This document shows positions 14,043-18,370 of a DNA stretch of 64,000 bases, one piece after another. The DNA comes from Pseudonocardia asaccharolytica DSM 44247 = NBRC 16224 (lineage in GTDB: Bacteria > Actinomycetota > Actinomycetes > Mycobacteriales > Pseudonocardiaceae). The position numbers and the translations under genes are program-made. The notes under the pieces were generated by a model. It was not told the origin of the DNA and searched no databases. It saw nothing but the letters and a program-made list of their open reading frames with translations. How positions within the stretch are numbered: the first letter of the stretch is position 1; every line of letters begins with the position of its first letter. The stretch is from contig NZ_AUII01000002.1 of NCBI RefSeq assembly GCF_000423625.1, positions 248,001 through 312,000 on the forward strand, given 5' to 3'.

Positions 14043-14060
14043 TGAGCCTTTGCCAACCTG
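14043..14060 (+). repeat. Left terminal inverted repeat of the IS
   Basis: TGAGCCTTTGCCAACCTG, perfectly complementary to 17149-17166. Confidence 0.85.
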
Positions 14061-14899
14061 GATCAAGCGCTCGCGATCATGAGGGTTTGGACGGCGGCGA
14101 CGAGCTCCGCGGCCCGGCCGGGGCTGGAGCGGATCTTGCGCAGGATCTTCCAGTGCTTCAGCTCGGCGTTGACCCGCTCGCCCGGGCCGCGTCGGTGAGC
14201 GTGCGCGGCGTTGACCTCGCGCTGGTTGCGCGACAGCGGCCGGTAGCGGCCGGTGTCGGGGGCGAGGCGACGTCGCCGCTGGGGCACGGCCACGGTGGGT
14301 CCGGCGCCCTGGTAGACGGTGTCGGCGACCGCCCGGACCCCGGCCTCGGCCAGCGCGTCGAGGATGCCGTGCTCGCGGGCGGCACCCATGTCGTGCCGGG
14401 CGCCGGGCAGCGGCGGGGAGATCCACACCGGCCGTCCGGCCGGGTCGGCGATGACCTGCACGTTCAGCCCGTGGCACGTGTGTTTGCCGCTGTGTGCGCC
14501 GTGAGGCGCTTGTTGTTCGAGTGGAGGTGAGAGACCGCCATCGTCGTCCTGTCGCAGCAGGGCGGTTGAAGCTGGGGGCAGCCCGCGCCGGGAGGTGCCG
14601 GGGTGGGTGGGAGCAGCCCTGACGAAGCCGGGACGTGCCAGCGCTGCCAGATGGCGCGGGTCCGGCGAGCGAGACGGAGAGGAGTACGCGAGGAACCGGC
14701 GTCTACGCCTCCTTAAGGCACGCCAGCTCGAACCTGGTGGATCTGGGCTGGATGCGGTGTGTCCCCGCCGAATATTCGGTCGGTGGGGACTTCCCCGGGC
14801 GGTCTACTGCGGTCGCGCGGGGAGGCCACGGTGAAGTGCTGCGGGGTAGCCGTGGCGAGGGCCGCGGGGGTATAGCCGGGCTCCTCCTTCGTCGATCGA

Positions 14900-14905
14900 A
14901 CAGCG
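14900..14905 (+). other. Candidate exon-binding site 1 (EBS1)
   Basis: ACAGCG pairs perfectly with the six bases preceding the intron (IBS1, CGCTGT, 14488-14493). Its place in a domain I loop, directly upstream of a conserved group II segment, supports the assignment. EBS2 was not identified. Confidence 0.65.
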
Positions 14906-15086
14906 AGTGAACACGGGAACCGTCCCGGATCTGCCCCGTTCCCCGCGTATCCGGCGCGGCGTGGGGCTGGGCCCACCGTCGGCCGATCGGTCCGGGGCGG
15001 GGCGGAGCCGCTGTAGTACTCCGAGTCGGGGAGAGCCCGGCACATGGGGAAGGGCGGCAGCGGTATCGAGAAGGGAGGAGGCTGCA

Positions 15087-16565
15087 ATGCCGAAAGACGC
15101 GCCGCTGAACAGCAGCGCCGCGCCGGCTGAGAATCTCGGTCCTCGCCGGCGGGTATCGGGGATGCAGGCCAAGCTTCACCATTGGGCGGCGGCCGACCCC
15201 GGCCGCAGGTTCGATGACTTGTTCAACCTCGTGTGCGACCCGGCGACGCTGCTCGTGGCGTTCGAGCGGGTCGCGGGCAACCGGGGAGCCCGAACCGCCG
15301 GAGTCGACGGCCTCACCGTCGCCGACGTCGAGCGGGAGATCGGCTTCCCGGGCTTCCTGGACGACGTGCGCCACGCGCTGAAAACGGGACAGTTCCGCCC
15401 GTTGCCGGGGCGCGAACGCGCGATCCCCAAGCCCGGCGGGAGCGGGAAGGTGCGCCGCCTCGGCATCCCGACCGTCACCGACCGGGTGGTCCAGGCAGCG
15501 CTCAAGCTGGTGCTGGAGCCGATCTTCGAGGCCGACTTCGAGCCGGTCTCCTACGGCTTCCGGCCCCTGCGGCGGGCCCACGACGCCATCGCCGAGATCC
15601 ACTACTACGGCACCCACGGCTACCGCTGGGTGCTGGACGCGGATATCGAGGCGTGCTTCGACTCCATCGACCACACGGCCCTGCTGGGCCGCGTGCGCGC
15701 CAGAGTCAAAGACAAGCGCGTGGTGGGGCTGGTCAAGGCGTTCTGCAAGGCCGGTGTCCTCACCGAGACCGGCCAGGACCAGACGACCATGACCGGCACC
15801 CCGCAGGGCGGCATCCTGTCCCCGCTGCTGGCCAACATCGCCCTATCAGCACTCGACGAGGCGCTGATGGAGCCGTGGAAGCCCGGCGGGACGATGTCGA
15901 CCAGAGGCAGACGGGCGCATCGACGCCGCTACCGTCGACCGAACTGGCGGATCGTGCGCTACGCGGACGACTTCGTCGTGCTGGTCGACAGCACCGGTGA
16001 CGGCGCCAGCGACGACGTCGCCCGGCTGCGCGAGGAAATCACCGACATCCTGCGCCCTCTGGGACTGCGGCTCTCACCGGCCAAGACCCAGATCGTGCAC
16101 ATGTCGGAGGGGTTCGACTTCCTCGGCTTCCACATCCAGTGGCGCCGCAAGCGAGGCTCGAACCGCTGGTACGTCTACACCTTCATCGCCCAGCGTCCGC
16201 TGCGGCAGCTGAAGGACAAGATCCGTGCCCTGACGAACAGGACATCGCAACAGGCCCCCAGGGCCGTGCTGGTCAGGCTCAACCAGATCATGCGCGGCTG
16301 GGTCGCCTACTTCCGGCACGCGGTATGCAAGACCACCCTGAAGGCCCTCGACCACTTCGTGTGGCGGCGGGTCTCCAGCTGGTGGATGGTGCTGCACCGC
16401 TGGAACTGGACCGACCTCCGGCGACGCTTCACCGACCGCGACGGCCGGTGGAGAAGACTCTCGGCGGACGGGATCGAGCTCTTCGCCACGGTGTCGATGC
16501 CGGTCACCCGGTACCGCTACCGCGGCAACACGATCCCCACCCCCTGGAGCCTCAACCACGCCTGA
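15087..16565 (+). CDS. ltrA: Group II intron reverse transcriptase/maturase
   Basis: A 492-residue intron-encoded protein needed for splicing and retrohoming. The reverse transcriptase fingers/palm include RRLGIPTVTDRVVQAALK, YGFRPLRRAHDA, TPQGGILSPLLANI and the catalytic YADD at 292-295. The maturase (X) domain follows with RGWVAYFRHA. No HNH endonuclease domain is present after it, so it is an endonuclease-less type that probably targets nascent or single-stranded DNA. GGGAGGAGG precedes the ATG; an upstream in-frame start lies inside structured intron RNA and is unlikely. The frame looks complete, so the element may still be mobile. Confidence 0.93.
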   Translation: MPKDAPLNSSAAPAENLGPRRRVSGMQAKLHHWAAADPGRRFDDLFNLVCDPATLLVAFERVAGNRGARTAGVDGLTVADVEREIGFPGFLDDVRHALKTGQFRPLPGRERAIPKPGGSGKVRRLGIPTVTDRVVQAALKLVLEPIFEADFEPVSYGFRPLRRAHDAIAEIHYYGTHGYRWVLDADIEACFDSIDHTALLGRVRARVKDKRVVGLVKAFCKAGVLTETGQDQTTMTGTPQGGILSPLLANIALSALDEALMEPWKPGGTMSTRGRRAHRRRYRRPNWRIVRYADDFVVLVDSTGDGASDDVARLREEITDILRPLGLRLSPAKTQIVHMSEGFDFLGFHIQWRRKRGSNRWYVYTFIAQRPLRQLKDKIRALTNRTSQQAPRAVLVRLNQIMRGWVAYFRHAVCKTTLKALDHFVWRRVSSWWMVLHRWNWTDLRRRFTDRDGRWRRLSADGIELFATVSMPVTRYRYRGNTIPTPWSLNHA

Positions 16566-16581
16566 AGGCAGAGACCGTGGA

Positions 16582-16673
16582 GAGCCCGGTGCGGTGAGAG
16601 TCGCACGCCGGGTTCGGCGAGCGGCACGGAGAAACGGACCGGTGGCAACACCGGCACCGCGCTCCGTGCCGAC
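16582..16673 (+). ncRNA. Group II intron domains V and VI
   Basis: Domain V is 16582-16615: GAGCCCGGTGCGGTGAGAG then TCGCACGCCGGGTTC. It is a hairpin with the usual catalytic AGC-like base, GTGAGAGT terminal region and conserved GGTTC end. Domain VI follows, with GGCACGGAG paired to CTCCGTGCC around a smaller hairpin; the branch-point adenosine should lie on its 3' side. Both lie directly downstream of the maturase stop. Confidence 0.82.
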
Positions 16674-17047
16674 TCAACAGAACGCCCGGTCGTACCCGCT
16701 GGCCATGCCGACCCGGTCGATGCGCAGCAGGGTGCCGTCGCCGATCATGAACGCCTTGCGCGAGGCGACCTCGATCGCCTGCTCCAGCGTGGGCGCCATC
16801 GCCGCGAGCAGCGCGAGGGCCTCGCGCACGTACCGGTACACCGTCGACGTGCCGACCCGGAATCCGCAGGCCAGATCGGCGTAGGTCTCGCCCTTGCCCA
16901 GGTAGGCCACCACCAGCAGGGCCTGGCGGCCGGGGTCCAGGCGTCGCCATCGGGTGCCGATCTGGGTGCGGCGCTGTCATAGCGCGTCGGTGAGCATGAT
17001 CAGCGCGCGGGTGGACACGCTCATCCCGGACGGGTAGGACAACACAT

Positions 17048-17102
17048 GAAGCTCCTGGCTGGACGAGTTGATCTAGGCAATCGCCCGTCTACCAGGAGCT
17101 TC
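17048..17102 (-). other. Inverted repeat upstream of the transposase start
   Basis: GAAGCTCCTGG (17048-17058) and CCAGGAGCTTC (17092-17102) form an 11-bp stem that includes the CAGGAG ribosome site of the transposase. Transcripts entering from outside would fold it and hide the site. Such structures often limit transposase translation. Function is inferred. Confidence 0.5.
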
Positions 17103-17148
17103 ACCCATTCAAGGTCACGCCACGCCGCACACTCCCGACCTGCTCAGG

Positions 17149-17166
17149 CAGGTTGGCAAAGGCTCA
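17149..17166 (-). repeat. Right terminal inverted repeat of the IS
   Basis: CAGGTTGGCAAAGGCTCA on the plus strand, the exact reverse complement of 14043-14060. The sigma-factor fragment begins immediately outside it. Confidence 0.85.
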
Positions 17167-17624
17167 GTGTCCCACCGGCCGCGGTCCTGCTCCGCGAGCG
17201 GCACCAGGCTGCCGTCGGGCGCGGTCCGGGTGGCGCGCCGGGCGTGGTGGAGCAGCATGAGGGCGAGCAGCCCCGCCACCTCGGGGTGGTCGATCGCGGC
17301 CGCGAGCTGCCGGGTGAGCCGGATGGCCTCGGCGGCGAGGTCGACGTCGCCGGAGTAGCCCTCGTTGAAAACCAGGTAGAGGACGCGCAGCACGGTGGCG
17401 ACGTCGCCGGGCCGGTCGAACCGCACGCCGGAGACGGTGCGCTTGGCCCGGCTGATGCGCTGCGCCATGGTCGCCTCGGGCACCAGGTAGGCCTGGGCGA
17501 TCTGGCGGGTGGTCAGCCCGCCGACGGCTCGCAGCGTGAGCGCGACCGCGGACGACGGCGTCAGCGTCAGGTGGGCGCACAGGAAGTAGAGCTGGAGCGT
17601 GTCGTCCACCGCAGGCCCGGTCAC
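17167..17624 (-). pseudogene. ECF sigma factor fragment (DUF6596/TPR type)
   Basis: The remnant reads DDTLQLYFLCAHLTLTPSSA, TLRAVGGLTTRQIAQAYLVPE and ATMAQRISRAKRTV (sigma region 4). A DUF6596/TPR part follows (YLVFNEGYSGDVDLAAEAIR; LALMLLHHARRATR) and stops at the IS end. Region 2 is missing: the GTG overlapping the YCII stop is followed after four codons by region 4, implying an in-frame deletion of about 100 or more residues. The C-terminal half is lost beyond the IS. In relatives this sigma follows a YCII gene exactly as here, so the pair was once a normal operon. Confidence 0.82.
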
Positions 17625-18028
17625 TCCGTGATGGTGGGCGGCGCGGCCAGGAACGGGCGCACCTCGAGCCACTCGTGGATCGGCTTCCCGCCCGCCCCCG
17701 GGGCGGCCGACAGCTCCCCGGCCAGCTCGATGGCGTGCTCGTAGCTGTCGACGTCGATCACCATCCAGCCGGCGATGAGGTCCTTGGTCTCGGCGAATGG
17801 GCCGTCGGTGACCGGCGGGCGTCCGTCGCCGTCGTACCGGACGAACGTCCCCTCAGGGGCGAGCGCCTGACTGTCGACGAACTCGCCGGTCCCCTCCAGC
17901 CGGGTCGCGAAGTCGTGCATGTACTGCACGTGCGCCGAGATCTCCTCCGGCGTCCACCGGTCCATGGGCACGTCGTTGACCGAAGCCGGAGCGCCGCGGT
18001 AGTGCTTGAGCAGCAAGTACTTGGCCAT
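17621..18028 (-). CDS. YCII-related (DGPF-domain) protein
   Basis: A 135-residue small cytosolic protein of the YCII/DGPF family. The name-giving motif VTDGPFAETKD is at ~73-83, and the typical start MAKYLLLKHYRG and end HEWLEVRPF are present. GAGGAGAAACACG precedes the ATG. These proteins usually form operons with ECF sigma factors, apparently as partners of unknown biochemical function. Here the sigma gene overlaps its stop codon but is a relic, leaving this gene orphaned. Confidence 0.88.
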   Translation of the reverse strand: MAKYLLLKHYRGAPASVNDVPMDRWTPEEISAHVQYMHDFATRLEGTGEFVDSQALAPEGTFVRYDGDGRPPVTDGPFAETKDLIAGWMVIDVDSYEHAIELAGELSAAPGAGGKPIHEWLEVRPFLAAPPTITE

Positions 18029-18370
18029 CGTGTTTCTCCTCGATGCTGGTGCGACCCATTTCGGTCACGTTCACCGCGGGGACGGAGCCAGACCCGGGTT
18101 CTCGACATCGCCGTCCGAAATTTTGGCTCTCGTAGATGAGCCTGGGTGAGCCGTCTCGCGATGTCCGGTCCATGGCGTGGCGCGACGGCGAGACGGAACG
18201 AGGCCTTCCAAGATCAGCAGCGACCGTCCAGGACGAGGTCGCCCCCTCGCGAGCCTCGTAACCGGCAACTCGGCACCGAGGATGCGGCTCCGTGCGGTGC
18301 GGACGATCTGTCCGGCCACGCGACGGAACGCGGACAGACAAAAATTGTCCATCAGCGTACAGTCTTGTAC
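18029..18370 (+). promoter_or_regulatory. Intergenic region with candidate toxin-antitoxin operators
   Basis: No gene is seen in this 342-bp stretch. Just before the antitoxin start are two small palindromes. GGACA-N9-TGTCC spans 18332-18350, and GTACA-GTCT-TGTAC spans 18357-18370 and abuts the ATG. Phd/YefM antitoxins normally repress their own operon by binding such sites. The assignment is inferred from position and symmetry. Confidence 0.5.

Follow-up and report, generated by a model that had tools for sequence, protein, structure and literature searches.

A group II intron antisense within an IS5-family transposase gene of Pseudonocardia asaccharolytica

How does a group II intron come to lie inside a transposase gene on the strand opposite to it, where its splicing cannot restore the transposase mRNA? 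The question is raised by a locus in a 64,000-nucleotide (nt) stretch of the genome of Pseudonocardia asaccharolytica DSM 44247 (hereafter the window), in which an intron on the forward strand (14494-16678) interrupts the transposase of an IS5-family insertion sequence (IS) that reads on the reverse strand. Our answer, to which we assign a probability of roughly 0.88, is that an IIB-like retroelement without an endonuclease (En-less), of the type of RmInt1 from Sinorhizobium meliloti, recognized its target in the DNA of the transposase's non-coding strand, an insertion that left this IS copy with no way back.

The element itself is a complete group II intron of 2185 nt (GTGCG...CTCAAC), delimited by an Rfam match, by a 5’ end shared with its relatives and by unoccupied copies of the site. 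The Rfam model of domains V and VI (RF00029) matches 16580-16678 with 53.7 bits (gathering score 40), over the whole model and stopping exactly at the intron end, and the fold of the same segment has a z-score of -6.5. Within it, folding and Rfam place the 34-nt domain V hairpin at 16582-16615, and folding places domain VI at 16619-16675, whose bulged A at 16672 lies 7 nt before the intron end and is the likely branch point. The 5’ end, GTGCGCCGTGAGGC, recurs in the relatives, where it is about as far from the reverse transcriptase (RT) start as here, and the termini GTGCG...AC agree with the GUGYG and AY ends of group II introns. Both ends are thus those proposed in the initial annotation of this DNA, a GTGCG start and a final AC after domains V and VI.

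An intact reading frame of 492 amino acids (15087-16565, forward strand; RVT_1 and GIIM domains in Pfam) encodes the RT/maturase, which scores 361 bits against the curated group II RT/maturase model TIGR04416 (cut-off 300); domain model scans found no endonuclease domain in it. The intron is probably active. Two other assignments of the RT were considered and rejected. PADLOC returned defence-system matches in 62 families (best RT match 230 bits), which look like generic RT matches; the TIGR04416 score lies above its cut-off, those of the defence models below theirs. The best PDB sequence match is the class C (IIC) enzyme GsI-IIC (193 bits), and the class C reading was set aside because pairing of exon-binding site 2 (EBS2) is present. 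A single pair between EBS3 and intron-binding site 3 (IBS3), together with EBS2-IBS2 pairing, is taken as the mark of IIB-like introns; covariation points to both here (see below), and the best reading is that of an IIB-like, En-less intron with an RT of an actinobacterial family.

The host IS spans 14044-17165 on the reverse strand and measures 937 bp without the intron, as delimited by repeat search and unoccupied copies; its terminal inverted repeats (14044-14060 and 17149-17165) pair at 17/17 positions, or 20/21 in longer arms. The transposase matches DDE_Tnp_4 (9.5e-20). Its C-terminal part occupies 14063-14491 (Pfam; 48 bits against NF033581, under the cut-off of 140) and its N-terminal part, recognized by translating the joined flanks, 16680-17045, both on the reverse strand. 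With the intron removed, the frame runs ...RAF-Y-SGKH..., so that joining the flanks restores a tyrosine codon in FYSGKH, and the opposite strands of intron and transposase support the view, already taken in the initial annotation, that splicing is unable to rescue the IS. The transposase frame is open for 99 codons before the insertion site and carries an in-frame TGA of its own at 16977-16979, independent of the intron and overlooked in the initial annotation.

Unoccupied copies of the same site were found in related genomes. In a 200-genome sample of the family, with three candidates scored per genome, DNA resembling the left part of the IS occurred at E <= 1e-20 in 26 genomes, own included. 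Fourteen loci (L093-L106) were fetched from genomes with such DNA, and 13 of these align across the predicted junction without a gap, at 72-84% identity (L106 ends short). The SGKH frame is readable in 11 of them, as FYSGKH in nine, SYSGKH in L095 and FFSGKH in L104, and is open for 104-163 residues before the site and 135-144 after it. Since these copies run gapless through the junction, the intron boundaries and the tyrosine codon must be right, and the empty copies match the junction that had been predicted.

The same copies bear on a second explanation, that the TGA had inactivated the IS before the intron came in and that what is left is a neutral relic with a stranded intron copy. All 11 readable copies are open where the window's transposase has its TGA, and one copy was found of both IS and intron, as this explanation would have it. 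Against it, the RT and domains V and VI are intact, the exon pairing is still good, and both transposase fragments keep a strong codon bias (G+C content at third codon positions, GC3, of 0.93 and 0.96), for which reason the decay looks recent. We regard this explanation, with its order of TGA first and intron second, as unlikely.

Evidence for a retroelement striking its own DNA target came from comparing exon recognition among relatives of the intron. A scan of genome_contigs found at least 579 stretches encoding relatives, and the best 80 matches yielded 79 loci; 70 introns, the window's included, were aligned from the 5’ end to the RT start. Excluded from the pairing tests were introns whose 5’ end was not confident (L022, L044, L046, L051, L052 and L085) or not found (L027 and L047), those whose contig starts at the intron (L014 and L035) and, from the shuffle and EBS3 counts, L043; 3’ ends were not used in L015, L028, L045, L054 and L062 (removed by hand) or in L022, L041 and L047 (not found). 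Covariation tied intron positions 224-228 (EBS2) to exon positions -14 to -9, positions of about 314-319 (EBS1) to -1 to -6, and position 380 (EBS3) to +1, the latter with Watson-Crick pairs in 56/64 introns and all four pair types represented. Over 69 introns, mean pairing was 4.70 for EBS1 and 4.86 for EBS2, as against 3.47 (standard deviation, sd, 0.09) and 3.39 (sd 0.09) with shuffled exons.

Transferred to the window, where all these elements read on the forward strand, this mapping places EBS1 at 14806-14813, EBS2 at 14717-14721 and EBS3 at 14873, with IBS2 and IBS1 in the 5’ exon at 14480-14493 and IBS3 at the first base of the 3’ exon (an A, 16679). EBS1, in its best register (intron 313-320), would pair with -1 to -8 through six Watson-Crick pairs, one G-U pair and one T-T mismatch at -3, EBS2 with -10 to -14 through three Watson-Crick and two G-U pairs, and EBS3 with +1. 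A different EBS1 had been proposed, the hexamer ACAGCG at 14900-14905, which occurs once in the intron and within the window alone pairs better than the covariation site (6.0 of 6 vs 5.0). Across the 69 introns it tracks no exons (3.13 vs 3.00, sd 0.08, with shuffled exons), its letters staying much alike whatever the exon. Judged by this alignment the match is a chance one, an exact hexamer in some 590 nt being not rare, and covariation refutes the earlier placement.

The exon base most conserved among these introns is the T at -15 (base 14479 in the window), present in 27/28 non-redundant exons of the window's clade and in 80% of 56 non-redundant exons overall, or 64% of the 28 outside that clade. 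When EBS1, EBS2, EBS3 and T-15 were scored together, the real site ranked first among the 1838 sites that the two IS strands offer, and elsewhere in the window its score was reached at 2 of 121,720 sites; with EBS2, EBS3 and T-15 alone it tied for first with two others. In PMC8914252 the protein of RmInt1 is shown in contact with G-16, T-15 and G+4, and the window has both G-16 and T-15.

Several observations weigh against a targeted strike. The register used for the ranking lies one base off the alignment optimum and was picked with the site known, and in the alignment-favoured register 20/1838 sites outscore the real one. EBS1-IBS1 pairing has its mismatch at -3, position +4 is an A rather than the G contacted in RmInt1, and one copy of the intron was found among the 40 candidates scored in the draft genome, a count that gives no sign of mobility in this strain. 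We nevertheless favour an RmInt1-type strike on the DNA because of the intact RT/maturase, domains V and VI, the covarying exon pairing, T-15, the rank of the site and the unoccupied copies. In such an event, the intron ribonucleoprotein would recognize T-15, IBS2, IBS1 and IBS3 on the non-coding strand of the FYSGKH stretch and reverse-splice into the target DNA, and, by analogy with RmInt1, it would then be copied into DNA in the manner of En-less introns, which draw on the replication fork. The insertion would be a one-way inactivation of an IS copy in which a TGA is also present, and the intron would spread through retromobility of its own; the searches described next gave no hint that it is carried by the IS.

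The initial annotation had suggested such a second route, in which further IS copies supply transposase in trans and so move IS and antisense intron as a composite, by which the intron would also travel as DNA. The parts of this idea that hold are the terminal inverted repeats, both present and paired at 17/17 positions, and the occurrence of at least three IS copies in each of two genomes of the same genus (G050 and G082, three candidates scored per genome). The other copies and composites that it calls for were not encountered among the candidates scored. In the strain's own genome, a 5.05-Mb draft of 71 contigs in which the best 40 of 237-560 first-look candidates were scored, neither a second intron nor a second IS was found, other IS matches spanning only 31-85 query bases. 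In a survey of 62 genus genomes, own included, with at most four candidates scored per genome, introns alike at E <= 1e-50 occurred in 11; the 20 other matches had 66-93% identity over varying lengths, and the window's 5’ exon was in none of the seven whose exon was read (all from plus-strand matches). No second composite was seen in the own genome or among the 62, no short target duplication was seen by eye in the IS flanks, the left flank is not syntenic, and the transposase has its TGA. We therefore consider movement as a composite very improbable.

The DNA around the IS was compared with that of congeners. To its right (window 17163-18200), five congeners share 95-97% identity over the first 446-458 bases, starting from the IS end, and the left flank has no match in those five loci, which are not syntenic there; because one flank is conserved and the other unmatched, the IS would sit at a breakpoint, which suggests a rearrangement at the IS. 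One genome, G202, has 267 extra bases at about window position 17620 in this right-hand DNA.

Is antisense placement in a transposase peculiar to this locus? The 79 loci were picked by RT similarity, with many sites shared by descent and ascertainment uncontrolled, and 76 are from Actinomycetota, the others being L052, L067 and L092. A quick RT tree defined the window's clade, to which L038 and L055, with broken RT translations (12 and 21 stops) and long branches, were added by hand; the L055 exon resembles that of L048. Codon bias alone chose wrong frames in some relatives (e.g., L058), and frame pairs were used instead. Host frames of at least 50 codons touching the intron ends were scanned with Pfam in four groups, namely the window's clade in sense (70 pieces) and antisense (74, including two window pieces) and other relatives in sense (127) and antisense (115), where one protein may match several families in the piece counts.

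Outside the clade, transposase families dominate the sense pieces (ISL3 in 8, DDE_Tnp_1 in 6, Mutator in 4, rve in 4, Tn3 in 3, and others), and transposase signs in the antisense pieces are limited to DDE_3 and helix-turn-helix (HTH) families, one member each, the HTH piece being L069. Single scans of 30 chosen pieces (29 sense, 1 antisense; 12 more loci of the group were left out) found a sense-strand transposase or recombinase family in 22 of the 29, more weakly in L090 (HTH_21 alone), L068 (two ISL3 side domains) and L092 (DDE_3 below the curated cut-off). The remaining seven sense pieces showed no such family (L046, L054, L062, L075, L078, L079 and L082), L082 having sub-cut-off matches to an HTH domain and to one for metal resistance. 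In L069, the antisense piece, HTH domains were recognized, and the frame joined across the intron is CMD/KTSIQ (slash, insertion point).

Within the clade, sense pieces matched DDE_Tnp_1_4 (3) and Mutator, DDE_Tnp_4, rve, Transposase_20 and DDE_Tnp_1 (1 each), and antisense pieces matched phage integrase (4) and Mutator, DUF4096, DDE_Tnp_4 (the window itself) and HTH_Tnp_4 (1 each). Single scans of 20 clade pieces found antisense placements in L014 (DUF4096, IS4/5), L033, L034 and L035 (phage integrase) and L051 (Mutator, near the end of the frame) and sense placements in L040 (rve) and L041 (Mutator), with a weak HTH_Tnp_4 match in L049; 12/20 matched no family or an unrelated one. L014, antisense behind the DST motif of an IS4/5 transposase, comes near to the window's own arrangement. 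It and L049, both close relatives of the window's intron, carry one and the same RT and occupy two places in a single genome.

When placements at one site were merged by hand, the clade had four antisense and three sense sites and the other relatives one and 16 (rough Fisher p = 0.0145); p would be 0.06 or 0.13 if the clade had seven or eight sense sites, and six sense pieces in it, from four families (DDE_Tnp_1_4, three; DDE_Tnp_4, Transposase_20 and DDE_Tnp_1, one each), are not assigned to loci. The 5’ boundary could be read in 21 sense hosts that Pfam supports, and of these 17 are interrupted between codons and four in phase 2 (L081, L087 and L090 being read as phase 2); phase 0 accounts for 12/14 distinct sites, again collapsed by hand, vs the one third expected (binomial p = 8e-5). 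Outside the clade, 7/27 non-redundant exons have a GAY (Asp) codon beginning at -9, vs 0 to 3 at other offsets from -40 to -3, and in 1/24 exons within it.

The insertion points include VDEHV/WRHT and ADRFHLWR/N in ISL3, YDVT/TLYFE in IS1634/IS4-like elements, WLDAT/Y and WSNNP/QERLN in IS256, VDEK/TSIQ in IS630, YFDET/V in IS66, RWVVER/ in IS5/IS4, NKVE/H in ISAzo13 and HDMR/H in tyrosine recombinases; Pfam supports the protein families, and in part it is our own reading of known transposase families that names the IS families and takes the motifs as catalytic. The same ISL3 position was seemingly struck in L048 and L091, on different branches, an IS630 motif was struck in sense (L092) and antisense (L069), and a tyrosine-recombinase motif in sense (L089) and antisense (L033/L034). 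Relatives of the intron often seem to occupy conserved motifs in transposases of many families, for the most part in sense and between two codons. A bolder proposal is that the family homes to codons for catalytic residues of unrelated transposases and tyrosine recombinases, behaving like inteins and group I introns in that it reads conserved DNA of active sites, and that the window's lineage may have relaxed the rule of orientation, so that a guest able to splice out became one that kills transposons for good. We put it forward tentatively, as possible rather than probable: the excess of Asp codons is absent from the window's clade, and the untraced sense matches there weaken the part that concerns orientation.

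The recurrence of antisense placements (L014, L033-L035 and L051 in the clade, L069 outside it) also bears on the proposal that selection favours such placement because RNA transcribed from the intron side would silence related IS copies, making the intron a transposon repressor. Among the candidates scored, the genome showed no further IS copy that could be silenced, and sense placement dominates in relatives outside the clade and occurs inside it too; we find this proposal hardly credible.

Some relatives depart from the transposase pattern. L078 lies in sense inside the frame of a GH19 chitinase (WNFNY/KAAG), a non-mobile host gene, and L075 reads DWNVKH/DGAG, with no Pfam match. In L081, L087 and L090 the intron seems to come directly ahead of the stop codon that ends an IS3-type orfA (orfA being our own reading), and orfB domains follow downstream. 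Three introns of P. kunmingensis (L063, L064 and L139) share an identical 16-base 5’ exon, atcgcgagtatcggtt, the 3’ exon of L064 differing from those of L063 and L139; this site is not obviously in a gene and is perhaps a second type of target. Genome G215 has three full-length intron matches and a partial one.

The intron termini vary in a concerted way. The first and penultimate bases of an intron are in contact, and in the 66 introns with both ends (window included) they covary, as GTGCG...AC in 54 and TTGCG...GC in nine (L016, L018, L019, L020, L024, L030, L031, L032 and L060), the other three being L017 (GTGCG...GC), L078 (GCGCG...AC) and L082 (GAGCG...AC). The introns with U and G at these positions are scattered on the quick RT tree, several have a GGTTCTGGC-like 5’ exon, and this natural U-G version of the pair looks unusual.

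How does the locus compare with known systems? Group IIC introns lie behind terminators or in attC sites and are not known to have EBS2-IBS2 pairing; the window's intron resembles them in having an RT without an endonuclease domain, with GsI-IIC as its best PDB match, and differs in having EBS2-IBS2. With class G (variety g1), an intron-encoded protein type said, in the portion of the source consulted, to correspond to Actinobacteriota (PMC8919778), the likeness is one of taxonomic agreement only. IStrons, described in the text available to us as chimeras of a group I intron and an IS that form one mobile unit (PMC4227781), likewise combine a self-splicing intron with an IS; they differ in being group I, whereas the window's intron is group II, lies antisense inside the transposase and gives no sign of joint movement, intron and IS not having been met together at more than one place in the own genome and the 62 genus genomes. 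A survey of largely organellar genes reports, as far as the part consulted goes, that group II introns do not favour conserved sites (PMC2814812), from which the family pattern described here would differ. In the open-licence literature searched, we met neither an antisense insertion into an IS5 transposase nor homing to catalytic codons.

The closest likeness is to RmInt1 (class D, IIB3), which lies in ISRm2011-2 and shares with the window's intron the IIB type, a protein without an endonuclease domain, a place in an IS transposase, EBS1/EBS2/EBS3 pairing and the T at -15. According to the sections consulted, RmInt1 blocks the spread of its IS (PMC4238363, PMC5894124, PMC8914252) and can be spliced, though inefficiently, from the mRNA of the transposase (PMC4238363); since it can splice from that message, it must lie in sense. 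RmInt1 is thus spliceable, in sense and in an IS630-family host, and the window's intron is antisense in an IS5-family host. If the family pattern holds true, group II introns would be a natural form of transposon control that reads a part of the transposase which cannot easily mutate away, and the covarying EBS/IBS sets with T-15 would supply targeting rules, ready for use, for a family of actinobacterial introns. The single locus is a documented antisense case with unoccupied sites: the blocking of an IS by a group II intron inserted in its transposase is already well described, and the case in the window differs by its orientation and its host family.

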